Under the pieces are notes generated by a model. The model had not been told where the DNA came from. It saw only the letters and a list, made by a program, of their open reading frames with translations, and did no database searches. A program made the translations under genes and the position numbers. From a virus, in IMG/VR virus record IMGVR_UViG_3300032046_000115, positions 1-34,154 of that record: a stretch of 34,154 nt of DNA, one strand, 5' to 3'. Shown here piece after piece: positions 1,377-30,236 of the stretch (within the stretch, counting starts at the first letter, position 1; each line of letters starts with the position of its first letter).

Positions 1377-1389
1377 CCATATGCCTGCG

Positions 1390-1427
1390 TATTTACGATC
1401 TGCGATTTACGATTTTGCATTTGCAAT
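1390..1427. repeat. A-type intergenic repeat (ATTTACGAT family)
   Basis: Degenerate tandem copies of the ATTTACGAT/ATTTGCAAT motif fill the gap between two minus-strand genes. Similar copies occur at many other gene borders in this window. Confidence 0.7.
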
Positions 1428-1687
1428 CACGCCGCGCCATTGAAGTCCACGGATTCCCGGCTGCCGTCTGCCTTGCGAATCTTCCAGGTCCCGCGCCACC
1501 CCTTTCTCAGCAGGTGCCCGAACAGCCGCTCGGTGCACTGTTCGCAGAACCAATAGACGACGCCGGCGTTGCCGCCAACGTCAACGGCCGTGAGTATCTC
1601 ATGGAGCTCGAAGGGTTGCCCACACTCGCAACAGGGCTTCCACGTGCACTCGACCTCCGTCGCGACGATCCGCCGATGGAGTTTCAT
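1427..1687 (-). CDS. Small zinc-ribbon-like protein
   Basis: 86 aa from the ATG at 1687, chosen over an upstream ATG at 1747 because AGGAGG sits 6-7 nt before it and because this avoids overlapping the upstream gene. It contains two Cys pairs (CCECGQ and CEQC) about 30 residues apart, which would suit one zinc site, and a C-terminal WRGTWKIRKADGS segment. The function is unknown. Its neighbours are other small Cys-rich phage proteins. Confidence 0.6.
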   Translation of the reverse strand: MKLHRRIVATEVECTWKPCCECGQPFELHEILTAVDVGGNAGVVYWFCEQCTERLFGHLLRKGWRGTWKIRKADGSRESVDFNGAA

Positions 1688-1733
1688 CCGAGGGCCTCCT
1701 GGGTCAGGCTCACTTCGCGGCCCCATGATCTGT

Positions 1734-2171
1734 TTATGGATTTTCACGGCGCTGCTCTCCCTCCATTCGCTCCATGGCGAGTTCTTCCTCCGTCACCGGG
1801 TTCGTGGCGGTCGATTTCAGCCGCGTCGGGAACGGCAGATCCCAGTGGGCGGCGATCGCGGCCCAGTCGATCTCCTCGAATCGGGCGTCCGTCCCGGCCA
1901 TCCGGCAGATTTCGAAGAACTGCCGCTGAATGTGCGGCAACGCCAGCCCCTTGGGCCCGGATCTCGCCAAAATCAGGTTCGCCGGGTACAGATGCCGCAG
2001 TTGATCGTGCACCGCGCAGTTGACGCACAGGCCTTTCGGCTTCGCACTTCGCTTGAGCATCCTCGCCCCCGACCCGGGCACCGGATCGACCTTGCACGGA
2101 CGCCCACACCGGCCGCAGGAGCACCCCTGCCCGGAACCCGCAAACGCGAACGCCGCCTGTTTCTTCGGCAT
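1734..2171 (-). CDS. Hypothetical protein with N-terminal Cys clusters
   Basis: 145 aa from MPKKQAAFAFAG at 2171. The upstream ATG at 2216 would only add residues encoded by an A-type repeat, so I reject it. A GGA lies about 9 nt before the chosen start. The N-terminus has CSCGRCGRPC and later CVNCAVH, suggesting a zinc-binding head. The rest is helical, with no recognised motif. Probably an early phage protein of unknown function. Confidence 0.6.
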   Translation of the reverse strand: MPKKQAAFAFAGSGQGCSCGRCGRPCKVDPVPGSGARMLKRSAKPKGLCVNCAVHDQLRHLYPANLILARSGPKGLALPHIQRQFFEICRMAGTDARFEEIDWAAIAAHWDLPFPTRLKSTATNPVTEEELAMERMEGEQRRENP

Positions 2172-2174
2172 GGT

Positions 2175-2210
2175 CGATTTCCGATCTAAGATTCCTGATT
2201 TACGATTCCA
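2175..2210. repeat. A-type intergenic repeat
   Basis: Degenerate ATTTACGATT copies. They supply the last codons and stop of the truncated gene on their right and lie directly before the start of the gene on their left. Confidence 0.65.
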
Positions 2211-2389
2211 AGACACCCTTTATGAACTCCGCCGCGTGGAATATCCCATGTGAACGCGACCGAGACGCGGACCGGCAACTCGGGCAGATCGAACAGCGGC
2301 GGCTCATCGCAGAACGCCAGCTCATCCGTCGGCGTCATGCTGGTCCGCCGGGCGAAGACCCGAATAATCTTGTCATTTGTCGTGGTCAT
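2186..2389 (-). pseudogene. 5' remnant of a phage radical-SAM-like gene
   Basis: 67 codons from an ATG at 2389, 5 bp after the stop of the upstream gene. The N-terminus (RVFARRTSMTPTDELAF, then DEPPLFDLPE and FTWDIPRG) resembles, from memory, the start of a phage protein family that continues into a CxxxCxxC radical-SAM-like domain. Here the frame runs into an A-type repeat after about 45 family-like residues and stops. No Cys-rich domain follows in any frame before the next gene. It is either a decayed gene or a short protein derived from one. The family match needs a database search. Confidence 0.5.
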
Positions 2390-2394
2390 CGTCT

Positions 2395-2859
2395 TCACCG
2401 ACTCGCTGGTGCCGCGGCGGGCAGCAGGGCCTTGAATCCATGCTCTTTGATGCTCTGGAAATAGGTCTGCTGACGGCCGTGATCGTAGACGTAAGGCAGG
2501 AAGACCTCCATCAGCTCCACCTGCGACAACTCGATCATCGCCATCTGGGCATCGATCCAGTCCGCCAGGATCTTCCACGCCGTTCGCCGGGCCTGGTCGC
2601 CGATCTTTCGCAGGGTCTCCGGCCTGGGGCGCCGCATATTCGCCCGCAGAGTCCGCTCCACCGCCGCGACTTGGCACGGTAGACGGAACGGCATATCCAC
2701 CTCCCCGATCCGAACGATGAAACAGATCGCATCGACTGTGCCCTCCGGCGAGTATATCTTGAGGATCTGCGTCGCCTTATGCCCGGCGAGCTTGGCCTCG
2801 ATGTAACTGATCGATCTATCCGCCGAAATCCCGCTCGTGTAATTCTTCAATGGCATCAT
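2395..2859 (-). CDS. Hypothetical phage protein
   Basis: 154 aa. GGAGAGAC precedes two adjacent ATGs (2859 and 2856). The protein has a beta-rich first half (AGHKATQILKIYSPEGTV, CFIVRIGEVDMPFRLP) and a helical second half ending in KEHGFKALLPAAAPASR. The layout is like small phage proteins that accompany recombination or replication genes, but I see no diagnostic motif. Clearly coding by frame and start context. Confidence 0.65.
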   Translation of the reverse strand: MMPLKNYTSGISADRSISYIEAKLAGHKATQILKIYSPEGTVDAICFIVRIGEVDMPFRLPCQVAAVERTLRANMRRPRPETLRKIGDQARRTAWKILADWIDAQMAMIELSQVELMEVFLPYVYDHGRQQTYFQSIKEHGFKALLPAAAPASR

Positions 2860-2895
2860 GTCTCTCCATGTCCTTGCGGGCGGGTTTGCCCCCCC

Positions 2896-3810
2896 CTATA
2901 ATGGCTTGCCCGGCTGCTTGCTGCCGGGGCAGGGCCGCTTTCTGTTGCCCCGACCAGCACAGTATGCAACGCCGTCGAGGTCATGCGGATAGATGCCGCG
3001 ACTCGATACGGTGAAGACCCGCCCGCATGCCGAACATTTGCCCTTGGGGCGAGGCCCTTTGGACACGGGTTCCGTGGAGCATCGCGTCACACGGCCGCGC
3101 TTGGGCTCATGTTCATCTTCTCCCTCCGACTCGCCCTTGTCGGCCGAACGGATGCGGGCGGTACACGTCTCGCCGCCCCGGCGGGTCTTGCCGTACTGGG
3201 GACTCTTCGGGTTGGCGCAGGTCCCGTACATGCTGTTGCCGACCGTTAATTTGAAGGCGCCGCAGCCGACGCAGTGGCCCGCCTCAAGAATCTCTTCGTG
3301 TCTTTCGCGCTCTTCGTGGTTCACCTCCGATTTATGATTTACGATTTCCGATTTACGATTTAGGGTTCGGGGTTTCGGTTGCCCGCCCTTCCCATCGACC
3401 ACCCGCACTTCCTCTTTCACCCGCGGCGTCGCCGGCATCTGGTCGGTAGGCAACGTAGTGGGTGAGGGCAGGATCGTGACGATCCGGTTGCCGGTCCAGA
3501 TGCCCCCGACCCGGAATGCAGCTTTGGGGATCAGGCCGAAATCCTTCAGAGCGCTGTGCGCGGCCAGTCGAATGCCTTGGGTCCCCCTGCGCATGATCGC
3601 AATGGAGCCCGGCTCGATCTTCGAATCCGTCGGCTCGAAAACCAAGCGCCTCGACTCGGCGCCGTAGCCGATCAGTATGCGACTGGCCGTTTTGGGGATG
3701 TTGCCGGCGAGCGATCCGCCGATGTAGACGCCGCCGTGCGTGTTGATCGCGATGGAACTCCCCGCTTGGTTGCTGTGCACGAAACCCTTGAAGAACACGA
3801 TGTCATCCAT
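2896..3810 (-). CDS. Two-domain protein with an in-frame repeat linker; C-terminal zinc fingers
   Basis: 304 aa; GAGG lies 8 nt before the ATG. Residues 1-145 form a beta-rich domain (GGVYIGGSLAGNIPKTASRI). Residues about 150-175 are encoded by an A-type then a B-type repeat, which elsewhere are intergenic. Residues 176-304 carry at least three Cys clusters (CVGCGAF, CSACGRVF and C-terminal Cys residues), a zinc-ribbon pattern. The gene may be two ancestral genes fused by read-through of the repeat. An internal GTG at the junction has GGAG too close to be a good start, so I keep one ORF. Function unknown. Confidence 0.6.
   Translation of the reverse strand: MDDIVFFKGFVHSNQAGSSIAINTHGGVYIGGSLAGNIPKTASRILIGYGAESRRLVFEPTDSKIEPGSIAIMRRGTQGIRLAAHSALKDFGLIPKAAFRVGGIWTGNRIVTILPSPTTLPTDQMPATPRVKEEVRVVDGKGGQPKPRTLNRKSEIVNHKSEVNHEERERHEEILEAGHCVGCGAFKLTVGNSMYGTCANPKSPQYGKTRRGGETCTARIRSADKGESEGEDEHEPKRGRVTRCSTEPVSKGPRPKGKCSACGRVFTVSSRGIYPHDLDGVAYCAGRGNRKRPCPGSKQPGKPL
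3288..3362. repeat. B-type half-site followed by A-type repeat, inside a coding frame
   Basis: A TTCGTGTCTTTCGCGCTCTT-type unit ending in CGTGGTT, then about 35 bp of ATTTACGAT copies. Both are read in frame within the gene spanning 2896-3810. Confidence 0.75.
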
Positions 3811-3861
3811 GACTCAAACCTCAATTTTCGAAACCACGAAGCTCACGAAGAGCACGAAGGG
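3808..3861. repeat. 54-bp direct repeat, copy 1 (start codon, RBS and B-type unit)
   Basis: Differs from bases 5408-5461 at one position (A at 3831, G at 5431). Each copy holds the start codon and GAGG ribosome site of a minus-strand gene followed by a B-type repeat unit. Confidence 0.9.
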
Positions 3862-4454
3862 TTCGGCAGATAGGCCCTGCCGATGATCCGCTCGATACAA
3901 TTGCCTGTGACGTCGGCCCAGATCATGGCTTTTCCCTGAATGCGGCCGGCGTGCAGGCGAGGCTTACCATCGGGGCGACGCACGCAATACTTGCGGGCGA
4001 ACAATGGCATCCAGTCATATAGCGATTCATCGAACAGCCCTGGCGGATGGACTGGGAACAAAGCCATGATCGGCTCCCGCAATCGCATCTGCCCCGAGTA
4101 GTCCCGAAGATCGCGCACCTGAATGCTGATCCCACGCCCGACCAGGTACGTCCACCAACCATAATAGGCAACGCCGTCCACGCCCGGGCAGTGGAATACC
4201 CAAACGTAGAGCGCCCGCCGTTCCGTGCGTCCGCACCCTTCCCGCCGCCAACTCAAGGACTTCGCTTGACGTTCCCGCTTTTCTCGACCAAGATCCTGCC
4301 ATGTCGTCACTCTCGGCTTCGCGCCCGGGTGGTCGATCTCCACCACCGCCGCATCCGGACCGAACCGGTCCCAGAACGATTCCGGTATGATCGAGGGACC
4401 CTTGCCCCGGTCCCGTTTTCGCGAGTTGACGTAGATCGCGCCCGCGGCTCTCAC
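3843..4454 (-). CDS. Hypothetical phage protein
   Basis: 203 aa from the GTG at 4454, which overlaps the upstream stop as GTGA and has AAAGGG about 9 nt before it. A longer frame from a GTG at 4490 lacks a usable ribosome site. The protein contains ALYVWVFHCPGVDGVAYYGW and a C-terminal LHAGRIQGKAMIWADVTGN. The last residues (PNPSCSS) and the stop come from a B-type repeat. It is translationally coupled to the DUF5131 gene, so the two may act together. No family recognised. Confidence 0.65.
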   Translation of the reverse strand: MRAAGAIYVNSRKRDRGKGPSIIPESFWDRFGPDAAVVEIDHPGAKPRVTTWQDLGREKRERQAKSLSWRREGCGRTERRALYVWVFHCPGVDGVAYYGWWTYLVGRGISIQVRDLRDYSGQMRLREPIMALFPVHPPGLFDESLYDWMPLFARKYCVRRPDGKPRLHAGRIQGKAMIWADVTGNCIERIIGRAYLPNPSCSS

Positions 4455-7667: not shown

Positions 7668-7763
7668 GTCCATTTCGTCCGTGTCCGTTTTTTTTGCGAA
7701 GAGCGATCCGGATTGCGCCTTTGGGCTGCGCTCCAGCTCCACGATCCTGTCTTGCGCGTCCAT
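7653..7763 (-). CDS. Small hypothetical protein (36 aa)
   Basis: Reads MDAQDRIVELERSPKAQSGS and ends at an A-type repeat (MDNRNS). GGGGAG lies about 8 nt before the ATG at 7763, which is 5 nt after the upstream stop. Too short for family assignment; supported by start context and operon position. Confidence 0.5.
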   Translation of the reverse strand: MDAQDRIVELERSPKAQSGSLFAKKTDTDEMDNRNS

Positions 7764-7768
7764 GCCGT

Positions 7769-8008
7769 CTACTCCCCGCATTTAGAGCCCAGCGACGCGA
7801 ACCCGTGCGCCGGCCCGAGGTCCTCCTTCCGGCCCTCCACGATCGCCTCGACCTGGGCGACGTACGAGTCGTGCTGCTTCGCCGAACGCCGAAGACGCCG
7901 GCAGTCGTCGCACAGGAGGCTCTTGCCCGTCTCCCGGAACGTCTTTCCGCAGCCCGGCCAGTCCCCTATGCCCACGCACACCATCTCACACTTTCGATGC
8001 CGACCCAT
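7769..8008 (-). CDS. Small zinc-binding protein
   Basis: 79 aa; GGAGG lies 9 nt before the ATG. The pattern CxGIGDWPGCGKTFRETGKS then LLCDDCRRLRR looks like a treble-clef or zinc-ribbon module that could bind DNA. The C-terminus is helical (HDSYVAQVEAIVEGRKEDLG). Several phage small proteins share this design, and no specific function can be assigned. Confidence 0.6.
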   Translation of the reverse strand: MGRHRKCEMVCVGIGDWPGCGKTFRETGKSLLCDDCRRLRRSAKQHDSYVAQVEAIVEGRKEDLGPAHGFASLGSKCGE

Positions 8009-8012
8009 GTCG

Positions 8013-8162
8013 TCAATCCTCCATCAGCGATTCCATTTGCTCGGCGAGTTTGTCCACGGCGGCGCATAGGTGCCGCAGCGCCTCGCGCTCCATTAGCCGG
8101 GCCCCGCCGATTTGCATGGCGGAATCCGCTTTCTTCGTCCGTGTCCGTCCAGTCCTGTCCAT
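8013..8162 (-). CDS. Small helical protein, paralogue of the 6291-6539 product
   Basis: 49 aa from the ATG at 8162 (GGAG 8 nt upstream), chosen over a longer frame from 8324 that would overlap the methylase gene. The C-terminal 24 residues align with those of the gene at 6291. Function unknown. Confidence 0.5.
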   Translation of the reverse strand: MDRTGRTRTKKADSAMQIGGARLMEREALRHLCAAVDKLAEQMESLMED

Positions 8163-8182
8163 AGCGTCCACTCCAGGTCCAC

Positions 8183-9358
8183 TTATTGTCCATCGAACAG
8201 CGACATCCGATCGGCGGGCTTCCTGCAATGCGGAGAGAAGAACAGGGCTTCTCGATGCCGATTCCTTTGCCCGCGAGATTCGGCGCCGCCGGCTATATGG
8301 CTGTATCCGCCTACCGCAGACCATCTGTAAACGGTCCAGCCCTCTCGCAACAGGGACTCGTGCTCCTCATAGTACCCGGCCAGGACGATGCGATAGTCCG
8401 GGTCCGCCGCGCGCGTCCTGCACCACTCGCGAACGTCGTGGGCAACCGTCTGCGAATCTACGGCGTACAGGGCTTTATCGCGGTCTGCCACGTCTGAATA
8501 AGGCGGATCGAAAAAGATTCCGCACGGCCTGCCCGGCCTGGTCTGCCAGTTGCCGCCGCAGACCCGGCTCCAGTCGCCGCAAACGACGCGAACGTACCGC
8601 AGGCGCTCGCTCAATCGCCGAAACCATGTGTAGATGTTCAGAGTGTACGGCTCCCGGACATCCTTGCCGCCGCCGTTCCCCAGGTTCGGTATCTGGCCCT
8701 TCGCGTGGACGCCCTTGCCGCCGTCCGCCAGGTGCGGTATCTTGCCCTTCGCGTGGACGCCCTTGCCGCCGTCCGCCAGGTGCGGTATCTTGCCCTTCGC
8801 GTGGACGCCCTTGCCGCCGTCCGCCAGGTGCGGTATCTTGCCCTTCGCGTGGACGCCCACGCCGCCGGTCCCCAGGTGCGGTATCGCGCCGGGGCAGATT
8901 AGGCCGTGCCCGATCCAGCATGAGGCCGCCCAGATGTAGTACCCGGCCAGCTTGGCGTCGAAATAGGAATCGTCGGCGCAGAGCTTTTCGAGCAGCGCCC
9001 CGTTCTGCTCGTTCAAGACCCGCTTACGGCACATCAAGTCCGCATGGTTCACAGGCCAGTCGCACCGCTTGGCGACGGCATCGGGGTCCGTTTGAAGACT
9101 GCGCCACGCGTTGCAGATTTGACCGTCGGAATCGTTCACCGTTTCCACATGCCGGGCCGGGTCCCAATCCGGCCTTGACAGCAGCACCGCGCACGAGCCG
9201 CAGAAAGCCTCGACGTAATGCCCGACGTCGCCAAGTGCCGCCCAAACGATGTCCGCCACGAGACCCTTGCCTCCGAAATACGCTACGGGAACGGAGCTTT
9301 GAGGCCCCGTTCCGTCGTGCTCCTTTCGATCGTCATGCTCGGCATCCTTGAAGTCCAC
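8183..9358 (-). CDS. dam: D12-class DNA adenine N6-methyltransferase
   Basis: 391 aa from a GTG at 9358 with GGAG 8 nt upstream. The frame stays open to 9652, but that part reads through the end of another gene. Motif I is YFGGKG (residues 27-32), followed by VEAFCGSCAVLLSR; the catalytic motif is FFDPPYSDVADRDKALY. It transfers a methyl group from S-adenosylmethionine to adenine N6, protecting phage DNA or altering expression. Between WAASCWIGHGLICP and the LNIYTWFRRLSERLRYVRV segment lies an array of 16-residue repeats (IPHLADGGKGVHAKGK). No restriction enzyme gene is adjacent, so this is an orphan methylase. Confidence 0.88.
   Translation of the reverse strand: MDFKDAEHDDRKEHDGTGPQSSVPVAYFGGKGLVADIVWAALGDVGHYVEAFCGSCAVLLSRPDWDPARHVETVNDSDGQICNAWRSLQTDPDAVAKRCDWPVNHADLMCRKRVLNEQNGALLEKLCADDSYFDAKLAGYYIWAASCWIGHGLICPGAIPHLGTGGVGVHAKGKIPHLADGGKGVHAKGKIPHLADGGKGVHAKGKIPHLADGGKGVHAKGQIPNLGNGGGKDVREPYTLNIYTWFRRLSERLRYVRVVCGDWSRVCGGNWQTRPGRPCGIFFDPPYSDVADRDKALYAVDSQTVAHDVREWCRTRAADPDYRIVLAGYYEEHESLLREGWTVYRWSAVGGYSHIAGGAESRGQRNRHREALFFSPHCRKPADRMSLFDGQ
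8645..8884 (-). repeat. 48-bp tandem repeat inside the methylase gene
   Basis: Four 48-bp units begin at 8884, 8836, 8788 and 8740, with a degenerate fifth at 8692. Units two to four are practically identical and encode 16 residues each, so copy number changes keep the frame. Confidence 0.95.
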
Positions 9359-9572
9359 GTCCGATTCTCCGACACGCCCTGATCCACAATCCCTCGACCC
9401 GACGATCCGCCGGAATCGCCCCAAGCCGGATCGCTTGCCTTCTCTCGGTTCCCGTGAGGTCATGATGGGGCATAGACGCCTTGTCCTGAAGCCATTCCCG
9501 ACGGAGACTGAGCTTGGCCGCGAACGCGTGAAGCTCATCGAGGTCTCCGCCGCGGAGCCAGTGCCCAAATCT
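9333..9572 (-). pseudogene. DUF4031 gene lacking its start
   Basis: A 79-codon open frame reads LDELHAFAAKLSLRREWLQD then MPHHDLTGTERRQAIRLGAI, the hallmark of DUF4031 proteins. These are small phage and bacterial proteins of unknown function. The family's N-terminal 15-20 residues are missing: a TGA lies at 9573-9575, no ATG, GTG or TTG precedes the conserved part, and a B-type repeat lies about 15 bp beyond. It overlaps the methylase start by 26 nt. Probably a decayed gene truncated at the repeat. Confidence 0.6.
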
Positions 9573-14219: not shown

Positions 14220-14403
14220 GGATGGTATCTCTTTTTGCCTGTGACTGCCCCATTTTCGAATGTGGGCCGCGCGATGGAGAACGAAGAGGTAGGTACGCGC
14301 GGCCCGCGTGGTCGTGCATGCCGGCCCCGGTCAGTGATGGCACTGGGGCACAGATCGTCACGATTCCGAAAAGCGGATATCGCGCCGAGGCCGGCGACGG
14401 TCT

Positions 14404-14438
14404 TCGATTGTCGATTTACGATTGACGATTTACGATTC
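14404..14438. repeat. A-type intergenic repeat
   Basis: CGATTTACGATTGACGATTT-type copies directly before a truncated B-type unit (CTTCGTGGTT). Confidence 0.7.
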
Positions 14439-14467
14439 AACTTCGGGCCCTTCGTGGTTCAATCCGG

Positions 14468-14800
14468 TCAGTTCGGGTTCGCGATCTCCCGCTTGATCCA
14501 ATCTAAAAACGTATCGATCTGCATGCCGAGCGTGACGGCCTTCGACCCGGCCGGAGGGTCATTGCCTGCCGCCGGCGGCGGAATGGCCACGCCGGGCGAG
14601 ATCAAACCCATCACCGCGGCATCGACCTCCGCCTTGTGCCTCGCCCGGAACAACCCGATCTGGCCCGCCGTCAACATCATAGCAGCCTCCAAACTGGCAT
14701 CCCAGCCCTGTCGCCTCGCCTCGACGAGCCAGGCGTACACGGCCTCCTGCAGGTCCCGCAGGGTCAGATCGCACATGACGATACTCGATGGATCAACCAT
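14468..14800 (-). CDS. Hypothetical early protein
   Basis: 110 aa from the ATG at 14800 (GGAG 8 nt upstream). A longer version from 14827 adds only repeat-derived codons. It contains LTLRDLQEAVYAWLVEARRQ and EAAMMLTAGQIGLFRARHKA, both helical, and a Pro-rich middle (AIPPPAAGNDPPAG). No motif recognised. Confidence 0.6.
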   Translation of the reverse strand: MVDPSSIVMCDLTLRDLQEAVYAWLVEARRQGWDASLEAAMMLTAGQIGLFRARHKAEVDAAVMGLISPGVAIPPPAAGNDPPAGSKAVTLGMQIDTFLDWIKREIANPN

Positions 14801-14834
14801 AATGATCTCCGGTTTGTCATTTAGCATTTACGAT

Positions 14835-14963
14835 TTACGATTCCGCCGGCGGCAACTGGTCCAGCTCCCGGCGGAACTCCTCACACCGGCCGCAACCCAC
14901 GGGACAGCGGCCGTCCACCCACAACACACAGGGCCCGTCGCCGGGCACCGGCACCGCCATCAT
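14835..14963 (-). CDS. Small Cys-rich protein (42 aa)
   Basis: From the ATG at 14963: MMAVPVPGDGPCVLWVDGRC, then PVGCGRCEEFRRELD. The four Cys could bind zinc. The frame is open upstream to 15161 through a B-type repeat, but GAGACGCGG before the paired ATGs makes the short form more likely. Confidence 0.5.
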   Translation of the reverse strand: MMAVPVPGDGPCVLWVDGRCPVGCGRCEEFRRELDQLPPAES

Positions 14964-15047
14964 CCGCGTCTCGGCGCCGCCCCAGACATCCAGGTCTTCG
15001 CCGCTCCGCGGCGATCCGCGATCCGTGATTTGCGACTGCTGATTCAC

Positions 15048-15075
15048 TTCGTGCCCTTCGTGCTCTTCGTGGTTA
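15048..15075. repeat. B-type half-site
   Basis: A single TTCGTGCCCTTCGTGCTCTT-type unit ending in CGTGGTTA, just upstream of the rightward promoter. Confidence 0.75.
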
Positions 15076-15108
15076 AAGGTCCGCTCTGTGAATTTGGGCA
15101 ATTTACTA

Positions 15109-15136
15109 TTGACATTTCCGAACGCCACGCTATACT
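15109..15136 (+). promoter_or_regulatory. Predicted rightward sigma70-type promoter
   Basis: TTGACA (15109-15114), a 16-bp spacer, then TATACT (15131-15136); expected start near 15143. An AACGG-5-CCGTT inverted repeat at 15151-15165 lies just past the start and could be an operator. It points toward the plus-strand operon at 15500. Confidence 0.65.
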
Positions 15137-15182
15137 GTACCGCTATCGCGAACGGACTCACCGTTACACCCGGCGGCCCGAA

Positions 15183-15341
15183 TCAACTCGGCTCCTCGCA
15201 GGGGCAAGGAGGCAATCCCATCAGCACAACTCGTTCGGCCTTCGCGGCGTCTCGTACACGCCTCAAGGGCTGCTCTTCGCCAGGCTCCTCCGAGCCATCC
15301 ACGGCGATGCTCTGCCGGGACCGTCCTTGATGCTCAGCCAT
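15183..15341 (-). CDS. Possible leaderless small ORF (52 aa)
   Basis: Starts MAEHQGRSRQSIAVDGSEEP and ends GLPPCPCEEPS. No ribosome site precedes the ATG, but the predicted leftward transcription start lies about 6 nt upstream, which would give a nearly leaderless mRNA. It would be the first product of the leftward early transcript. Weakly supported. Confidence 0.3.
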   Translation of the reverse strand: MAEHQGRSRQSIAVDGSEEPGEEQPLRRVRDAAKAERVVLMGLPPCPCEEPS

Positions 15342-15353
15342 CCATTGCGTGTG

Positions 15354-15382
15354 AGAGTACAGAGGCGGGGAGGTAATGTCAA
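15354..15382 (-). promoter_or_regulatory. Predicted leftward promoter
   Basis: On the minus strand: TTGACA (15382-15377), a 17-bp spacer and TACTCT (15359-15354). The -35 is perfect and the -10 is poor. The three TTGTC sites lie just upstream of its -35, where activators or repressors bind. It faces the promoter at 15109. Confidence 0.45.
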
Positions 15383-15390
15383 CTGAAAAG

Positions 15391-15453
15391 TTGTCTTTTA
15401 AGGCAAAATTGTTGTCCTAAAGGATTATCGGATTGTCCAAGACGGATCATTAA
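15391..15453. promoter_or_regulatory. Three TTGTC direct repeats at 21-bp intervals
   Basis: TTGTC begins at 15391, 15412 and 15433, each about two helical turns apart. The bases after TTGTC are similar (TTTTAAGG, CTAAAGG, CAAGACGG). The spacing puts all copies on one face of the helix, the usual design of an operator for a small cooperative DNA-binding protein. Confidence 0.6.
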
Positions 15454-15499
15454 CTGCCCGTATCATAATGACTTAAACGCAGTTCTGGAGGCCGTCGGC

Positions 15500-15880
15500 A
15501 TGGGTGAGAAAAAACGCAAAAAGAGGCCAACCGTCACGTTGCACGCGGGCGTGAACGCGGCAGTTGCAAAAAAATGGAAGGCGATTTGCGGCCGCCGCGA
15601 CAGAACGGCGTACAAGATGCTCGGCCGCATGGTGACGCTTTACACCATGCTCGAAAAGGATGCGCAGGATGCCGTGTACGACATCACGCGAGAGATCGAT
15701 GGCGATCTCGTCCAGGGGTTCAGGCGGGCTGTGGATCGGGCTGTCTCTGCCCGGATAATGTCCTTCCTGCCCCAAACGGAAGAGGTGATCCAGGAGTGGC
15801 TGCGGATCGCGAAATCCGCCGGGCTACCTCCTGAAGGAGCTGCAGATGATAAGCCGAACAAACTGTCATCGCTGCAGTGA
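15500..15880 (+). CDS. Probable DNA-binding regulator, ribbon-helix-helix-like
   Basis: 126 aa on the opposite strand to almost everything else; GGAGG lies 8 nt before the ATG. After a basic start (GEKKRKKRPT), residues about 10-52 read as strand-helix-helix: TVTLHAGVN, AVAKKWKAICGRR, DRTAYKMLGRMVTLYTMLEK. The rest is an acidic helical domain (ITREIDGDLVQGFRRAVDRA, TEEVIQEWLRIAKSAGLPPE). The fold is inferred from the pattern. Its place at a divergent or face-to-face promoter region with phased repeats suits a phage repressor or switch protein binding there. Confidence 0.6.
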   Translation: MGEKKRKKRPTVTLHAGVNAAVAKKWKAICGRRDRTAYKMLGRMVTLYTMLEKDAQDAVYDITREIDGDLVQGFRRAVDRAVSARIMSFLPQTEEVIQEWLRIAKSAGLPPEGAADDKPNKLSSLQ

Positions 15881-16023
15881 AGCAATTCAGGCAGGAAATC
15901 TGTCAGGAGACGAGGGTTGCCGAGGTTGACTCCTCGTCTCCTGGCGACGTTCTCGACGCAGTCGAAGCTCGTCAAGAAGAGCAACCCGGTAGGAGTGGTC
16001 ATAAAAAAGGAGCTCGTCGATGA
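15877..16023 (+). CDS. Candidate small ORF coupled by a GTGA overlap (48 aa)
   Basis: A GTG overlapping the upstream stop begins VKQFRQEICQETRVAEVDSS and the frame ends RSGHKKGARR, with its stop overlapping the next ATG. It is hydrophilic and probably disordered. All three plus frames and one minus frame are open here, so the true coding content is uncertain. A 12-bp hairpin lies inside. Confidence 0.3.
   Translation: MKQFRQEICQETRVAEVDSSSPGDVLDAVEARQEEQPGRSGHKKGARR
15904..15943. other. 12-bp perfect inverted repeat
   Basis: CAGGAGACGAGG (15904-15915) and CCTCGTCTCCTG (15932-15943) with a 16-nt loop, 23 bp past the regulator stop. No T run follows, so it may be a processing or attenuation structure rather than a terminator. 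Confidence 0.75.
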
Positions 16024-16214
16024 TCTGCAGGGAGGTGAAATCGATTGTCGAGGGTCCGCTGCGATGGTCGCTCGCTACCATAAGGCTCTCCAGCACATTG
16101 TCAGTCAAGATGTCCCCAACCACTGCCGAGCAGAATAGTGCCGTGGGATGTGGATGTCAACACTTTTTAACCACAGAGGGCACGGAGGCCGCAGAGAAAA
16201 GGACCGGAGAATGA
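16020..16214 (+). CDS. Candidate small ORF with excellent ribosome site (64 aa)
   Basis: AAAAAAGGAG lies 7 nt before the ATG, which overlaps the previous stop as ATGA. It reads MICREVKSIVEGPLRWSLAT and ends in TTEGTEAAEKRTGE, whose codons come from a CACAGAGGGCACGGAGG-type repeat. Its stop overlaps the next ATG. Overlapping alternatives are a plus-strand frame (15917-16138, containing VVIKKELVDDLQGGEI) and a minus-strand frame (15887-16123). Function unknown. Confidence 0.4.
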   Translation: MICREVKSIVEGPLRWSLATIRLSSTLSVKMSPTTAEQNSAVGCGCQHFLTTEGTEAAEKRTGE

Positions 16215-16456
16215 CCGAGACGGTTCCCATGTGTCATCTGTGCCATGCGCCACTGGCGAAGAAAACCATTACGACTGGGAACGCATCGGGCCTCGCCCTT
16301 GGGTTCATCTGCCTGGCCGCCGGAATCTGCCTATGCGTGACCGGGGTCGGCATCATCATCGGGGTGCCCCTTATCATCTGTGCCCTGTTCATGGGCGGGA
16401 AACGCCAGAAGTTTCTCTGCTGTCCAAATTGTGGGGCGAAGACACCAGCGGTGTGA
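16211..16456 (+). CDS. Small membrane zinc-ribbon protein with LITAF-like layout
   Basis: 81 aa from the ATG at 16211 (AAAAGGA 7 nt upstream; ATGA overlap). A longer frame from 16148 is repeat-derived. CHLC near the N-terminus and CCPNC near the C-terminus flank about 35 hydrophobic residues (LALGFICLAAGICLCVTGVG, then IIIGVPLIICALFMG). In LITAF-type domains two halves of one zinc site are joined by a membrane-embedded hydrophobic segment, as here. It would sit in the membrane. A role in superinfection exclusion is conceivable, because it travels with a regulator-like gene on the opposite strand. Confidence 0.65.
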   Translation: MTETVPMCHLCHAPLAKKTITTGNASGLALGFICLAAGICLCVTGVGIIIGVPLIICALFMGGKRQKFLCCPNCGAKTPAV

Positions 16457-16487
16457 TGCGCGATTCTCGCCGGAATGAAAAGCCTTC

Positions 16488-16566
16488 AACCACGAAGAGC
16501 ACGAAGGACGCGAAGAACCCCTTTCCTCTCCTTCCGGCCTTCGTGCTCTTCGTGAGCTTCGTGGTT
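16488..16566. repeat. B-type hairpin element between convergent genes
   Basis: AACCACGAAGAGCACGAAGG and its inverted copy surround AACCCCTTTCCTCTCC. It lies between the stops of a plus-strand and a minus-strand gene, where it could serve as a two-way terminator. Confidence 0.85.
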
Positions 16567-16579
16567 TGAACTCTTTCCG

Positions 16580-16786
16580 TCATTTGAGGGCCAGGGTCAA
16601 TAGCAGGCCGGCGAGGAAGGTGAGGAGACTGATCACGGTCGTCGCCCACAGGGGCAGGCGGTTGCGGATCGTATTGATGGCGGTCCACTGCTGCTCATCG
16701 ATATCGTGAAGCGCCTTATCCTTTTCCTGCAGGCCCTTGATCGCCTCTTCGTGCCGGGCCCCGATGATACACTCGCCATTCGCCAT
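16580..16786 (-). CDS. XhlA-like membrane protein (holin-associated candidate)
   Basis: 68 aa; TGGAGG lies 6 nt before the ATG. The N-terminal 45 residues are charged and helical (RHEEAIKGLQEKDKALHDID) and the C-terminus is one transmembrane helix (LPLWATTVISLLTFLAGLLL). This matches the length and layout of XhlA-type proteins, which are often next to lysis genes. No endolysin is recognised nearby, so the role is inferred from architecture. Confidence 0.6.
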   Translation of the reverse strand: MANGECIIGARHEEAIKGLQEKDKALHDIDEQQWTAINTIRNRLPLWATTVISLLTFLAGLLLTLALK

Positions 16787-16832
16787 TCTATCCTCCAGGG
16801 TGGGTTTGAAACACGGCCCCTACAAACTCTAT

Positions 16833-16868
16833 CTGAAATCGTAAATCATAAATCGTACATCGTAAATC
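16833..16868. repeat. A-type repeat, opposite orientation
   Basis: AAATCGTAAATCATAAATCG-type copies, the reverse complement of the usual orientation. Confidence 0.7.
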
Positions 16869-16874
16869 CCGGCA

Positions 16875-17714
16875 TCAGCCGGTCAGCAGCAGGTTGGTGA
16901 CGCTGTCGTAATTCTCGCCGTCGGGCAGGATGTATCCACTGCCCTCCTGGACCGGCCGCCAGCCGAGCAGCTTGCCCGTCCCATCGACCGTCGTGCCGAG
17001 GAAGTCGATCCGGGCGCGCACCCAGTCGGCCCCGACAGCGCTGAACGTGGTCTCCGCACTGACGAGCTGATAATCGCCCACGCCAATGCCTTCGCCATCC
17101 CAATCGATGCCGTCGCTGGCCAGGGGATCGCGGGCATAGCCATCGCCGGCCAGCTCCGCAATTGAGGCGAGAGTCGCGCCGTCGGCCAGGCTCGTGTTCG
17201 TACCGAGTCCGCGATAGAAGCTCGCGGGGACGCTCTGCTGCTCCGTGAACGCGACTTCCAGCAGGTACTGAAGGCCCGCCAGGACCCAGCCGCTCGTGAT
17301 GACCAGGCGGATCTCCACCGTGACGTCGTATTTCTTCGTATCGAGCAGCGTGACGCCGGCCCCACCGTTCAAGGCGCCGGAGGCGATCAGCTTGCCGGCG
17401 CCGCCGGAACTCGTCGCCAGGAACCAGCGGCCTGCCGCGGACCAGTTGCCGCCGGCGGCGAGGAACGTGCAGACCTTGCTCGTCACCTTGCGGCCGTTGG
17501 TGCTATAGGTTGCGCTGGTCCAATCGACGGCGTCCGAGTTGATCGCGATCCGGGCGTAGCCGTTCGTCGCGGCCAGCTCCGTCAGATCGGCGAGCGAGGC
17601 ATTCTCGTCGAGCGACGCTTCCGTGCACCAGCCGAGATAGTAGGCGGCGGGCACCGTCTGCGTCTGGCGAATCGCGACGTCCAAGATGAACTGGCGGCCT
17701 TCAGTGTGCAGCAC
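16875..17714 (-). CDS. Tail-associated structural protein with an internal duplication
   Basis: 279 aa from a GTG with AAAGGA upstream. Residues about 10-135 and 148-275 are two copies of one beta-rich domain: VPAAYYLGWCTEASLDENAS with GGNWSAAGRWFLATSSGGAG, and VPASFYRGLGTNTSLADGAT with GADWVRARIDFLGTTVDGTG. This domain occurs in phage tail-fibre and tail-tip proteins. It is the last gene of the tail module, directly after the tail-tip gene, as expected for a distal fibre component. Confidence 0.7.
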   Translation of the reverse strand: MLHTEGRQFILDVAIRQTQTVPAAYYLGWCTEASLDENASLADLTELAATNGYARIAINSDAVDWTSATYSTNGRKVTSKVCTFLAAGGNWSAAGRWFLATSSGGAGKLIASGALNGGAGVTLLDTKKYDVTVEIRLVITSGWVLAGLQYLLEVAFTEQQSVPASFYRGLGTNTSLADGATLASIAELAGDGYARDPLASDGIDWDGEGIGVGDYQLVSAETTFSAVGADWVRARIDFLGTTVDGTGKLLGWRPVQEGSGYILPDGENYDSVTNLLLTG

Positions 17715-17725
17715 GGCAATGTCCT

Positions 17726-19294
17726 TTAGTAGGGTCCGGTTTCCGTAGCGACGGCGGTGCCGTCCGCCTCGATCGTTCCTTCGTCCAGCGGCCGGTCCGT
17801 AATCGTCTCGGTCGGCGGCCCGGCCCCGGCCGCCGGCGGCGTCCCGTAGGACGTATATGCCTGGCCGAAGACGTCCTCGATCACTTCAATGATGCACTCG
17901 CCCTCGGTCAGACTGCCGCGGTCAATCGTGACCACTCGAACGATCATACTGGCGATGTTCAACTCGGGGTAGGCGATCTCGATCACGCTGGTCTCGTGCA
18001 GGTGGGCCATCGTCCGCAACGCATGCAGGGTCAGCCGCTTGGGCATTGCGGAGATCTGCTGCTGGATTCGGGCGGCGATCGTATTGGCCAAATCGCCGTC
18101 GCAGACGAAGGCACTGTAATCGAGCTCCTGGACTATCGGGTGACCGCCCTGCCGGGCCAGTAGGGCGATATCGTCTGCCACCGCCGGGCGGCTCTGATCC
18201 GTGGTCCGGTCGTGCCACAGCACCACGGTTCGCGATGGAATCGTGCCGGGCGAGCTGGTCGGCATGGACTCGACCCAGAAGTCGCTCTCATCGAAGATAT
18301 CCAGCGGGAGGTCGTAATCCTGGCGTATGAGTCCGATCTCGAATTTGCCCGTGGCCGGATCCGTATAGACCTTGCCGTCGATGATCTGCTCGACCTGGTG
18401 GATCATGTCGTCGATGCCGTCCGGGGCACTGTCCCAGGCGTACGATAGGCCCATGCCCTCGTCATAGCAGGTCTCGGCGGCCGTCGCGAAGGTGTCCCCG
18501 ATCAAGCCGGGGTCCTTGCCCATGCCGATGATCGGACAGGTGATCCACTCGTAGATCATGTGGATCGCGTTGAAGTCGGCGTACGCACCGACCGGGGCCT
18601 TGGCGATGTACCACATCGCGTCGCCATCGACGAGCTTCTTGGTCGCTTTGACCAGGAACGACAAGGGCTTGAGCTGGGGAACGCTGCCCATATATACGTC
18701 AGCCAGAATGACGCCGGTGAATCCGCGATACGCGGGCTGGTCCGCGCCGAGCCAGGCCTCGAGGTAGCTGTCCAGGGTCTGGGTGATGCCGCCGTATTGG
18801 ATGTGCACGACGCCGGAAACGCCGCCTTCACGTTCGTACCCGCCGAAGCAGTACGGGGCCGCGATCGTCGCCGTAGTGACGCCATCCGTCGCCCGGGCCG
18901 TCGGATCGTTCAGGACCGGCCAGACGCAGGTGTCCGCAACCCAGATCTGAAGAACGCCATCGACGTTCGCCTGGCAGATGCCCATGTGCAGACTGAGATT
19001 GTAATAGAGCGCGATGGATGCCCCGTGGTTCTTCTCTTTCTTCTCGACGTGATAATTGAAGATGGGACTGATCGCATTGGGTCCGCGATACCGTCGGCAG
19101 CCGCGGATCACGGGCAGCGGGCGACCCTCCGTGGCGGTCGGCAGATTGAATGCGGATGAGCCGGCGGGATTGCCCTTTGGTTTCTGGCGTAGAAGATATG
19201 CAATGCCGGTTGAAACCGCCGTGGCAATAAGTGTCCAGACGAGCCATACCACCAAAGCCGGCCAAACGGCGAGAATGCATGGAGCCATCATCAT
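17726..19294 (-). CDS. Tail-tip / host-specificity protein (J-like role)
   Basis: 522 aa from the first of three adjacent ATGs (19294, 19291, 19288), overlapping the upstream stop by one base. The frame is open to 19534, but that part lies inside the upstream gene. The N-terminus has a hydrophobic segment (MAPCILAVWPALVVWLVWTL). It is followed by EGRPLPVIRGCRRYRGPNAI and a large mixed domain with KPLSFLVKATKKLV and PDGIDDMIHQVEQIIDGKVY. The layout resembles phage tail-tip proteins that follow a DUF2163 gene. The N-terminal hydrophobic helix is characteristic of several of these families. Confidence 0.72.
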   Translation of the reverse strand: MMMAPCILAVWPALVVWLVWTLIATAVSTGIAYLLRQKPKGNPAGSSAFNLPTATEGRPLPVIRGCRRYRGPNAISPIFNYHVEKKEKNHGASIALYYNLSLHMGICQANVDGVLQIWVADTCVWPVLNDPTARATDGVTTATIAAPYCFGGYEREGGVSGVVHIQYGGITQTLDSYLEAWLGADQPAYRGFTGVILADVYMGSVPQLKPLSFLVKATKKLVDGDAMWYIAKAPVGAYADFNAIHMIYEWITCPIIGMGKDPGLIGDTFATAAETCYDEGMGLSYAWDSAPDGIDDMIHQVEQIIDGKVYTDPATGKFEIGLIRQDYDLPLDIFDESDFWVESMPTSSPGTIPSRTVVLWHDRTTDQSRPAVADDIALLARQGGHPIVQELDYSAFVCDGDLANTIAARIQQQISAMPKRLTLHALRTMAHLHETSVIEIAYPELNIASMIVRVVTIDRGSLTEGECIIEVIEDVFGQAYTSYGTPPAAGAGPPTETITDRPLDEGTIEADGTAVATETGPY

Positions 19295-20112
19295 CACGCG
19301 ATCCCCCAGGGACTGAATGGGTCGGTGTCCGGGATGTTCTTCTGGCCGCGATAGTTGTCGCCGTTGCCGAACTTCACATCGCAGGTGGTGAAGAGGTGAT
19401 CGCAGCCAGGATAGACATCGAAGGTCTGATCTGCGGCCACACCCGGCGCCGAGGGCGAGATCGTGACGTCCTGGCCGATGTGCCGAATGATTTTGCGGCG
19501 GCGGCCATTGACCACGATATCGCCGCCGGTCCACCAGCCGTCGGTCTGATATCCGAACGCCATGGCCGTGAGCACGTTGCCGCTGACGGCCGATAGCACG
19601 CCGCTCACCTTATAGTCGGCCCGGACCACGCCGCACAGCACGGGAGTATAGAGCTCGACTCCGCACTGGCGGCCGTAGCGAGTGACCAGGCCGGCTCGCT
19701 GCATCGCCGCCGTAGCCGGATCGATCACGATCTCGGACCAGCGGTCGCCCCGGCGGCTCTGCTGCCGGAAGACCACGTCGAGAACGTCACCTTTGAAAAT
19801 CGCTTGGACGTCCGAGCCGTGGCCCTTGTACCGCGCGTAGTGGATGATGTCCTCGGGGGCGGCGACGGTGTACTGCCAGGCGAACGGATTACGCCAATCC
19901 ATCTTGACGATCGTGCGGCTCTTGAGTGCGGTCGTCCCCTCCTCGATCCGTCCGCCGGTGCAATAGCACTTGGTGTAGTCATTGCCGCCGTAACTCACGT
20001 CGGCGGGCGCGTCCGCGTATCGCCACCAGGTGCTCGTCGCGCCGAGTTGGAATGCGTGCAGCTCGAACGGGACGCCCTCGGCCAGCGAGGCCTCTTTCGT
20101 CGCGAAACTCAT
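19294..20112 (-). CDS. DUF2163 / phage BR0599-family tail protein
   Basis: 272 aa from the ATG at 20112 (GGGAGG 5 nt upstream). The N-terminus starts MSFATKEASLAEGVPFELHA; the C-terminus has GCDHLFTTCDVKFGNGDNYR and NIPDTDPF, the conserved Cys-rich end of this family. In gene transfer agents and siphophages these are tail-tip hub components next to the tail-tip protein, as here. Confidence 0.82.
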   Translation of the reverse strand: MSFATKEASLAEGVPFELHAFQLGATSTWWRYADAPADVSYGGNDYTKCYCTGGRIEEGTTALKSRTIVKMDWRNPFAWQYTVAAPEDIIHYARYKGHGSDVQAIFKGDVLDVVFRQQSRRGDRWSEIVIDPATAAMQRAGLVTRYGRQCGVELYTPVLCGVVRADYKVSGVLSAVSGNVLTAMAFGYQTDGWWTGGDIVVNGRRRKIIRHIGQDVTISPSAPGVAADQTFDVYPGCDHLFTTCDVKFGNGDNYRGQKNIPDTDPFSPWGIA

Positions 20113-28392: not shown

Positions 28393-30234
28393 TCATCTAA
28401 TTGGATCGTAGATATCCTGGAACAACTCTTCGATCGTGATGCCGATGCCCGGGATCACAACATCGAGGATCTTCGCCAGATCGATCGTAGCGGTACCGAT
28501 GTCCGTGTGCAGGGCGCTGAGGCCATAGGTGCCATTCGCCAGAACACTGTTCGCGTCCATATCGACTTGAACCTTGTCCCCGATTTGCGAAATGCCTGCA
28601 AGGTCGGTGATGATGAGCGCCCGGGCTTGGGTCCAGTTGACCAGCAGACTGTTCGCGTCCATCGCCGCCTGGACATTGTCTTCGATATTGTTCAACGTCA
28701 GGTTGGCCAGCAGACTATTCGCGTCCATATCGGCGACGATCTTGTCCCCGATCTGCGAGATACCTGCAAGGTCGGTGATGATGAGCGCACGGGCTTGGGT
28801 CCAGTTGACCAGCAGACTGTTCGCGTCCATCGCCGCCTGGACATTGTCTTCGATATTGTTCAACGTCAGGCGGTCGGTGATCGCCTTGATGAGCGACTGG
28901 TTTGGCTCCGTGGCCAGTTCAATGTTGGCACCGACCAGCAGTGTGCGGAGTTCCGACGCAGTATCCACCGCGCCCGTATCGGTCAGAATGTCCGTGATGT
29001 TGCTGTTCGCCGTGCCGAGGTTCGTGGCGAGCGTGGCACTGTAGCCATAGGCCGTCAGCGCCGCCTGCGCGGCGGCCTGGGCATCGGCGGCGGTCAGGCC
29101 CGGATTTGTGGTGGTCGTATCGGTGACGGTCCCGCCATTCGGCACGAAGGCATAGTAGGTCGTCGTGTCGGGAGTGGACCCAGCCCACGAGCCCGAGATC
29201 ACCAGCGTATCGTTGGCGTCATAGCTATCCCGGACGGCGTAGACATCCGTGCCGGATCCCGTCCCGCTTCTCAGGGCCACGAGCCCGGTCATATTGTCGG
29301 CTCGCACGTCGCCGCTGGCACATTGGATCGTGTTCGCCGTTCCGGCCTGGGCAACGCCCTCACAGGCCAGATAGCTCGACGGCGACATCTCGATCAGGTA
29401 GGTCGTCGTGGCGTTCGGCGTCCCAAGCGGCCAGGTGCCCACGATGGTCATTGCCTGAGTCGCACCGTTGTACGACAAACCCGTCTGGCTCGTCGGCGAG
29501 CCCGTACCGGTCAGTATTTTGATCGTGCAGGGAATGTAGGCACTGTTGTCTGTAGAGCTTCCGGCTGCCAGCACTATCGTATTGCTCGTTCCGCCCGCTC
29601 GCGCTGTGCCCGAAATCTGCAACGGGTCGCCGCCGCCCGCCCTCTGCGCGTACCACGCCAGCGATTGCTTGATCTTGTTGTTGGTGAGCGTGTTGTCGAG
29701 AATCTCGTCGATGGCGCCGGTGGCCAGTTCACTCGACCCGATGGCGTCGGCGGCGATGGCCGCCGCGTTGATGGCCCCGCTCGCGAACGTGCTGGTCGTG
29801 ATGGATGAGTTCGTCGGACTGACCGTGGCCGTGCTCAGGTCGAAGACCCAGGCCCCGCTGGCATTGCCGAACGTCGGGATGTAATAGATTTCGTCTCCGA
29901 ACAGTGGCGGGGCGCTGGCGTCGTTCACGTCCACCGCGACGACGGCCGCCGTCATTTCCGTGGCGCTGAGCACCAACGAGAAGGACCGGCCCAGGTCAGT
30001 GACGGCGTTCGCGGCCCGCGCCTCGCTCGCCCCGTCCTGAAAGACGTGGACGTCCGCCAAAGCGGGCGCAGTCTCATAGAACCGCCACGGGGAGTTGCTG
30101 TCGGCCACGGCGAAGTACAGCGTGTATTGAGTCGCGTACTTGGCGGGGGGAAGCCAGTGAACGGTCGCCGAAGCGATTGTCGCCAACAGAAGCCCCAGAA
30201 CGATTGCGAGTGCCGTCTTTTTCATGGCTTGCAT
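28393..30234 (-). CDS. Large exported repeat protein
   Basis: 613 aa from the ATG at 30234 (AGGAG about 9 nt upstream); an alternative ATG is at 30225. The N-terminus is a Sec signal (MKKTALAIVLGLLLATIASA). The first 130 mature residues form a beta domain (YATQYTLYFAVADSNSPWRF), the middle is Thr/Ser/Gly-rich with repeated ISGTAR and VISGSW strands, and the C-terminus has two near-identical 56-residue repeats (LNNIEDNVQAAMDANSLLVN, then ALIITDLAGISQIGDK). The content resembles phage appendage proteins, but the signal peptide implies export to the cell surface. It may be a host-altering protein. No homologue recognised. Confidence 0.7.
   Translation of the reverse strand: MQAMKKTALAIVLGLLLATIASATVHWLPPAKYATQYTLYFAVADSNSPWRFYETAPALADVHVFQDGASEARAANAVTDLGRSFSLVLSATEMTAAVVAVDVNDASAPPLFGDEIYYIPTFGNASGAWVFDLSTATVSPTNSSITTSTFASGAINAAAIAADAIGSSELATGAIDEILDNTLTNNKIKQSLAWYAQRAGGGDPLQISGTARAGGTSNTIVLAAGSSTDNSAYIPCTIKILTGTGSPTSQTGLSYNGATQAMTIVGTWPLGTPNATTTYLIEMSPSSYLACEGVAQAGTANTIQCASGDVRADNMTGLVALRSGTGSGTDVYAVRDSYDANDTLVISGSWAGSTPDTTTYYAFVPNGGTVTDTTTTNPGLTAADAQAAAQAALTAYGYSATLATNLGTANSNITDILTDTGAVDTASELRTLLVGANIELATEPNQSLIKAITDRLTLNNIEDNVQAAMDANSLLVNWTQARALIITDLAGISQIGDKIVADMDANSLLANLTLNNIEDNVQAAMDANSLLVNWTQARALIITDLAGISQIGDKVQVDMDANSVLANGTYGLSALHTDIGTATIDLAKILDVVIPGIGITIEELFQDIYDPIR
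28540..28878 (-). repeat. 168-bp tandem duplication in the exported repeat protein gene
   Basis: The segment around 28661 recurs at 28829, exactly 168 bp apart (56 codons), with very few differences. Edges are approximate. Confidence 0.85.
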
Positions 30235-30236
30235 GG

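Follow-up and report, generated by a model that had tools for sequence, protein, structure and literature searches.

A probable mosaic accessory locus with a gene for a LITAF-like membrane protein, beside the late genes of a likely planctomycete phage

Introduction

LITAF-type proteins have been studied in animals, in which their mutation leads to nerve disease. Small extra genes of phages, the morons, include superinfection-exclusion genes, such as those for Ltp-type lipoproteins or SieA. In PMC5142333, the LITAF domain is presented as conserved in eukaryotes, with a hydrophobic stretch of 22 residues. Among the top-ranked PMC matches listed, none dealt with LITAF-type proteins in bacterial viruses. 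Here we describe a locus that brings these two subjects together. It lies in IMG/VR record IMGVR_UViG_3300032046_000115, a virus contig of 34,154 bases, open at both ends, that was analysed over its whole length and that we call the window.

The phage and its relatives

The late genes of the window are read leftward, from the major head protein (32330-33292) through the tape measure and the tail proteins to a small protein of 68 aa. The integrase gene (12842-11841; Pfam Phage_integrase, E 4.5e-19) is found further left, on the same strand as the late genes, and it is because of this gene that we take the phage to be likely temperate and able to form lysogens. The host is likely a planctomycete, since the best match of the tail protein among 11 cellular-genome loci is in a Pirellulales MAG (72% identity). 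Neither an Rfam family nor a tRNA was found in the window. On the late side, the structural protein at 28393-30258 carries a long internal duplication, in which NLTLNNIEDNVQAAMDANSLLVNWTQARALIITDLAGISQIGDK is found nearly twice. The locus of interest, 15500-16456, sits between the late genes and the integrase arm, on the strand opposite to the late genes, and holds four frames, which are given here with the last gene of the late direction.

15500-15880, plus strand: ORF1, 126 aa (P0002)
15877-16023, plus strand: ORF2, GTG start, 48 aa
16020-16214, plus strand: ORF3, ATG start, 64 aa
16211-16456, plus strand: ORF4, ATG start, 81 aa (P0001)
16580-16786, minus strand: final gene in the late direction, for a 68-aa protein that has one transmembrane segment at its C-terminus; conserved in both related contigs (L003 and L002)

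Family searches with the 68-aa protein gave no significant match. It has what we take to be an XhlA-like look and is perhaps lysis-related.

Two other IMG/VR records share this region, contigs of 25,888 bases (L003/L005), hereafter the sister phage, and of 4,982 bases (L002). Where matches between the sister and the window exceed 1 kb, their identity is 97.0 to 98.9%. Between 5686 and 23828, the stretches of at least 20 bases without a counterpart in the sister are 7672-9549, 15383-15998, 16204-16579 and 16787-17802, block limits being set as window DNA that the sister leaves uncovered at blastn E 1e-20 and 90% identity. As the sister lacks 15383-15998 and 16204-16579, the four frames extend over two exchange blocks and the core between them.

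15383-15998, no strand: exchange block 1 (blastn coverage), ORF1 and its upstream region; in the sister, other DNA with a 153-aa frame
15999-16203, no strand: conserved core between the blocks, 95.6% identical to L003 8320-8116 (9 of 205 positions differ)
16204-16579, no strand: exchange block 2 (blastn coverage), ORF4 and the hairpin behind it; in the sister, DNA with a 74-aa lipoprotein

The second block reaches from a ribosome-binding site to the stop codon of the 68-aa gene, which is convergent with ORF4. For both blocks, the comparison with one full sister finds replacement in a close relative between conserved flanks. It shows two neighbouring blocks, with one predicted plus-strand gene each, swapped as units around the 205-base core, and we regard the two outer genes as accessory because both are exchanged in the sister. 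The finding of exchange rests essentially on this single full sister, since only two other records were found and L002 is cut inside ORF4: its shared DNA starts within that frame, and the last 30 codons are left, with a stop just upstream. The 145-aa tail-side gene next to the locus is in L002 like that of the sister and not like that of the window (97.1% over 689 bases), so that the blocks are shuffled independently in the three records. An attachment site within ORF4, which the L002 breakpoint might suggest, is not supported: there is no tRNA, the integrase is about 3.5 kb away and the sister has no ORF4. A weak match, L006 (50% over 30 residues), belongs to an unrelated phage and was set aside.

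Several features of these contigs can be mentioned beside the two blocks. Just left of the L002 breakpoint, at L002 480-680, a direct repeat of about 110 bases with GCAACAAAGTGCAACAA-type runs was seen by eye. On the tail side (window 16787-17802 and 17726-19534), the tail protein has 602 aa in the window, versus 877 aa in the sister and 854 aa in L002; the C-termini differ, and the adjoining gene encodes a different protein. This variation looks like an exchange of receptor-binding parts. The variable block 7672-9549, absent from the sister, holds a match to a D12-type adenine methyltransferase (Pfam E 0.0055, below the cut-off), with an internal run of a repeated KIPHLADGGKGVHAKG-type peptide.

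The chain of overlapping frames

The first-pass annotation had read the four frames as a lysogenic-type cassette, with a regulator first and a membrane protein last, joined by overlapping starts. The 4-nt overlaps GTGA, ATGA and ATGA are indeed in the sequence, as is AAGGAG shortly upstream of the ORF3 start. When frames of at least 45 aa are considered, the window contains one chain of four such frames per strand, and such a chain is found by chance in 14% (plus) or 28% (minus) of local codon shuffles (n=200), in which codon-sized units were permuted within 900-base blocks. The overlap pattern is thus weak evidence and, as a chain, not above chance.

Codon usage separates the four frames. The log-odds model was trained on 24 hand-picked ORFs of the window and is hence in-sample; it gives +0.132 for ORF1, +0.052 for ORF4, -0.042 for ORF3 and -0.181 for ORF2, while reference windows of 60 codons have a mean of 0.196 in the true frame and of -0.273 in wrong frames (95th percentile 0.031). 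Judged against the wrong-frame range, ORF1 is therefore clearly coding-like and ORF4 marginally so, ORF3 is doubtful and ORF2 is not coding-like.

The sister phage adds to this. ORF2 is probably not a gene: no Shine-Dalgarno motif was seen for it, and it has no conserved counterpart in the sister. ORF3 is probably not a gene either. Its sister version meets TGA at codon 3 and has lost AAGGAG, and its C-terminus is a copy (16169-16188) of a dispersed repeat described below. The conserved frame of this middle part appears to be on the other strand.

16081-15887, minus strand: probable real middle gene, 64 aa, convergent with ORF1, conserved as protein in the sister
16132-16160, minus strand: promoter-like TTGACA-17-TATTCT upstream of this gene (10 of 12 consensus positions)

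A translationally coupled plus-strand operon of four genes (regulator, two small proteins, membrane protein) would account for the exact overlaps and for the good AAGGAG ahead of ORF3. But such chains arise in 14-28% of shuffles, the ORF3 of the sister stops at codon 3, ORF2 scores as non-coding and the conserved frame is the minus one, so that this operon is very improbable and, on sequence comparison, already largely refuted; the chance that ORF2 and ORF3 are both genes is equally slight. The two middle frames are probably antisense to the minus-strand gene. What stands of the lysogenic-type cassette is the direction against the main one, the promoter-like site TTGACA-16-TATACT upstream and the exchange of both outer genes; the single four-gene operon does not. 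Nor does the sister show the four frames to be one frameshifted gene, a refuting outcome that had been foreseen: ORF1 and the 153-aa frame of the sister are not alignable above shuffles. There is also a lesson on method in this result, which is that a tidy chain of overlapping frames can mirror a gene on the opposite strand.

The minus-strand gene of the core

The AAGGAG motif is the complement of two leucine codons of the minus frame (...DELLFY...), and the sister has the same peptide with other codons; the motif was thus lost through silent changes in the opposite-strand frame. Over 16000-16083, the eight base differences from the sister alter 6 minus codons and 1 amino acid (P 0.0008, random placement), and the same test gives P 0.46-0.98 in the other five frames. 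Past the core, the minus peptides can still be aligned despite the diverged DNA (YDHSYRVALLDELRLRR and YEPAFRRAMLNQLRLGR), down to their ends PSSPDRFPA and PSPPDRFPA. The score of this diverged C-terminus is 62 versus a shuffle mean of -16.6, and it was matched in 0 of 5000 shuffles (z 8.77). In this DNA, a pair of plus-strand frames interrupted by stops likewise scores above its shuffles (local score 39, z 4.55), so part of the signal of the minus pair is plain DNA similarity. At the three codon positions of the minus frame, the differences number 13, 7 and 26 (P 0.002, uncorrected for the six possible frames), in a count that left out eight poorly aligned codons (47-54). The frame has its ATG at 16081 with GGAG six bases upstream, and the stretch 16041-16203, which holds the promoter-like site, has a single difference from the sister, at 16113.

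An unlikely alternative is that, with the outer genes real, the middle 205 bases are conserved just as non-coding DNA, for regulatory reasons or by chance, and hold no minus-strand gene. The codon log-odds of the minus frame are atypical in both phages (-0.215 in the window, -0.144 in the sister), no family matches it, and no homologue was found in 294 Planctomycetota genomes, in which the one match (L029, E 0.0091) was taken as noise and offers no defensible similar frame. Against a non-coding middle, the silent-change pattern, the protein-level conservation of the diverged part and the promoter-like site and Shine-Dalgarno in place all argue for translation of the minus frame, and we think that this gene is quite probably real.

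The left block and ORF1

ORF1 is preceded by a GGAGG Shine-Dalgarno motif. A single-sequence model (pLDDT 65.9) predicts it to be all-helical after a basic N-terminus, with helices at 16-30, 35-63 and 69-106, and no confident structural match was found for this model. Searches of Pfam, PHROG, NCBIfam and PADLOC gave no significant family; the only PADLOC match was GajB, at an E of 0.015 that is not meaningful. No relatives of ORF1 were found among named phages and plasmids, and neither ORF1 nor the 153-aa frame of the sister has IMG/VR relatives beyond its own record. At an E of 0.01 or below, 294 Planctomycetota genomes gave 5 matches to ORF1, the best at 0.0053, and 4 to the 153-aa frame, the best at 5.4e-4; all were taken as noise. 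The two were also rejected as remote homologues of each other (z about 0.4 to 1.5 versus shuffles; blastp E 0.11). That ORF1 starts with a ribbon-helix-helix, as a DNA-binding regulator might, is a guess from its sequence, and family and structure searches lent no support to this or another DNA-binding domain.

15109-15136, plus strand: promoter-like TTGACA-16-TATACT, reading towards ORF1 (11 of 12 consensus positions; it may not suit the host's sigma factor)

This site is identical in the sister and belongs to the shared flank, not to the ORF4 block. Promoter-like sites number 5 within 14300-17000 versus 1.1 expected. A structured leader RNA between the site and ORF1 (15143-15385) was considered and rejected, as the fold (z +0.78) has no structure.

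The right block: ORF4 and the lipoprotein of the sister

In ORF4, C8xxC11 is followed by a hydrophobic stretch some 36 residues long, then by GGKRQK and C71xxC74 (CPNC). The earlier reading of the last frame as a zinc ribbon of the membrane, with a hydrophobic hairpin between its halves, is supported, and its LITAF-like character comes through its homologues. One of these, L034, is in another IMG/VR phage contig, with an identity of 43% by search and 40% by alignment. Two more were retained of the three matches in 294 Planctomycetota genomes (L026, 47%; L027, 27%), and a search of 166 genomes from one order of Planctomycetota added L050, in a single genome. A second match beside L050, L051, was rejected as having no second cysteine pair, and L028 (by look a sodium-pumping enzyme subunit), L024 and L025 were rejected as chance matches. 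Among named phages and plasmids, no relatives were found for ORF4 or for those homologues that were searched. In the L034 contig, by look, the LITAF-like gene comes after look-alikes of a uracil-DNA glycosylase, a family A DNA polymerase and a clamp loader (359-4234).

The four cysteines (C8, C11, C71, C74) are invariant in the 4-row alignment of ORF4 and its homologues, and three of the rows match Pfam zf-LITAF-like (PF10601), with 24.0 bits for L034, 15.4 for L026 and 11.8 for L027; the gathering cut-off is 23.8 bits, which L034 alone exceeds. ORF4 itself has no PF10601 match up to E 5. It is because ORF4 is below the Pfam threshold and one homologue is over it that we call it LITAF-like and not a member of the family. 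PF10601 is rare in Planctomycetota: with a limit of E 0.001, it was found in 3 of 246 genomes, in 2 of them over the cut-off, and in 0 of 14 controls; one of these two, L045, was rejected as a LITAF relative, being a soluble zinc-ribbon protein. In the same 246 genomes, phrog_10121 gave 3 weak matches (0 of 14 controls).

The structure prediction that had been proposed for the 81-aa protein places a strand, a helix at 25-42, a second helix at 47-61 and further strands, but it was made from 2 sequences, with a pLDDT of 65.4 and a pTM of 0.31. When the low-confidence stretches are set aside, the two halves of the model can be superposed on the zinc ribbons of RNA polymerase subunits, with 1.6 A over 40 residues and a Z of at most 5.8, which is lower than the tool's note regards as safe. 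The top match among viral structures is the LITAF protein of Singapore grouper iridovirus, a weak one (E 0.37, TM 0.53). A sequence search of solved structures with the 4 homologues gave 2 matches, both rejected as chance. Taken together, sequence and model have ORF4 as a LITAF-like membrane protein with a predicted four-cysteine zinc ribbon that is split by a hydrophobic hairpin.

At the place of ORF4, the sister phage has a 74-aa lipoprotein with an LLPGC motif, the cysteine of which is the likely lipid site. It starts right after the same dispersed-repeat copy and the same AAAAGGA ribosome-binding site as ORF4, and its codon score of 0.36 is strongly coding. A relative with 48% identity was found in 1 of 149 Planctomycetota genomes; among named phages and plasmids, there was a single weak match, to a phage (E 0.2). 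Its PHROG match to Cor, at an E of 0.26, is not meaningful. PADLOC gave nothing for ORF4 or for this lipoprotein.

16488-16566, no strand: hairpin of two inverted dispersed-repeat copies, between the convergent ORF4 and 16786-16580 genes (fold z)

Folded as 16480-16580, this hairpin has a z of -5.2 on the plus strand and -4.0 on the minus strand, and 0 of 200 shuffles were as stable on either strand. The terminator scan did not call it; it is a possible two-way terminator.

The repeat from which the hairpin is built has a periodicity of about 9 bases (consensus AACCACGAAGAGCACGAAGG) and is found at many gene borders on both strands. Its copies are at 3302, 3832, 5432, 6559, 9602, 10047, 10116, 10669, 13101, 15055, 16169, 16488, 16547, 25165, 27638, 31578, 32128 and 32196, among others; raw matches with up to 6 mismatches, which overlap, number 16 on the plus strand and 25 on the minus strand, and some of them are due to chance. 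The copies that bound the ORF4 block may be recombination points. A second dispersed repeat, with a 7-base periodicity (ATTTACG / CGTAAAT), is intergenic, at 14401-14438, 14806-14843 and 16831-16868.

Possible function of the locus

We consider it rather probable that a mosaic accessory locus lies here, between the late genes (tail, possibly lysis) and the integrase arm, with a right-hand gene that acts at the host envelope. The ORF4 homologues in the L034 phage contig and in Planctomycetota genomes (L026, L027, L050) support it. The left block would give ORF1, expressed from the plus promoter-like site 15109-15136 and encoding a small helical protein of the cytoplasm, and the minus gene would be transcribed from its own promoter-like site. 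ORF4 would be expressed through read-through or from a promoter not seen here, and the hairpin 16488-16566 would end transcription. The right block would supply an envelope protein, which in the window would be a LITAF-like zinc ribbon anchored by its hairpin at the inner membrane face and in the sister a lipoprotein. The weakest step is the last one, in which host-derived genes, expressed in the lysogen against the lytic direction, would alter the envelope and most plausibly hinder superinfection.

An exclusion or envelope-modifying role is proposed because unrelated envelope proteins share one slot beside exchanged tail genes (16787-17802). PADLOC and PHROG gave no meaningful match to exclusion or defence families for ORF1, ORF4 or the lipoprotein of the sister, and a part of ORF4 in superinfection exclusion is a tentative assignment to which we give clearly less than even weight. 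Two other roles can be weighed against it. ORF4 might be neutral host cargo, moved by recombination at the dispersed repeats and without function for the phage: copies of the repeat flank it (16169, 16488, 16547), L002 keeps just its last 30 codons and it has relatives in host genomes. The frame of ORF4 is nevertheless intact and has a ribosome-binding site, its four cysteines are conserved, and the sister holds an intact envelope protein at the same place, which makes mere cargo an unlikely explanation. ORF4 and its lipoprotein counterpart might also act in lysis, as holin or spanin beside the 16786-16580 protein, and not in lysogeny or exclusion. Outer-membrane spanins are lipoproteins, and the locus is at the end of the late genes, adjoining a small transmembrane protein. 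But ORF4 is on the strand opposite to the late genes, it and the lipoprotein are unlike each other, and its L034 relative is found among replication-type genes; we thus consider lysis less likely still than neutral cargo.

The mosaic accessory locus, our preferred reading, marks a swap site at the late-gene edge in phages of a bacterial phylum that has been little studied. A broader proposal can be made from it, although we find it doubtful: phages of Planctomycetota, and possibly others, would carry a prokaryotic LITAF-type branch as swappable envelope-targeting genes, which act at the inner surface of the host membrane (exclusion or stress buffering, for example) and whose genomic slot can be taken instead by a lipoprotein of the same function but of no relation to them. 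A compact viral or bacterial LITAF version would be a small system in which to ask about the role of a membrane-split zinc ribbon and the origin of the domain.

Comparison with known systems

The locus resembles phage morons, including superinfection-exclusion genes such as those for Ltp-type lipoproteins or SieA, in that a small extra gene is missing from a close relative while the flanks are conserved, and in that ORF4 would be an envelope protein encoded against the late direction. It differs from them in that ORF4 has no sequence relation to any exclusion family searched. The family phrog_10121 matches ORF4 residues 28-80 (E 0.00012), but the match spans just the hydrophobic part and the second cysteine pair, and this PHROG has no known function.

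The nearest described likeness is with zf-LITAF-like (PF10601) and the LITAF/SIMPLE proteins of eukaryotes. The hydrophobic part of ORF4 is longer, with two predicted helices (25-42 and 47-61), compared with the 22 residues of LITAF as given in PMC5142333, and there is no proline-rich N-terminus. ORF4 comes from a bacterial virus, whereas that article presents the LITAF domain as one conserved in eukaryotes (PMC5142333). What ORF4 shares with LITAF is the arrangement in which cysteine pairs flank a hydrophobic stretch, here predicted to be embedded in the membrane; the two halves of ORF4 would probably form one zinc ribbon.
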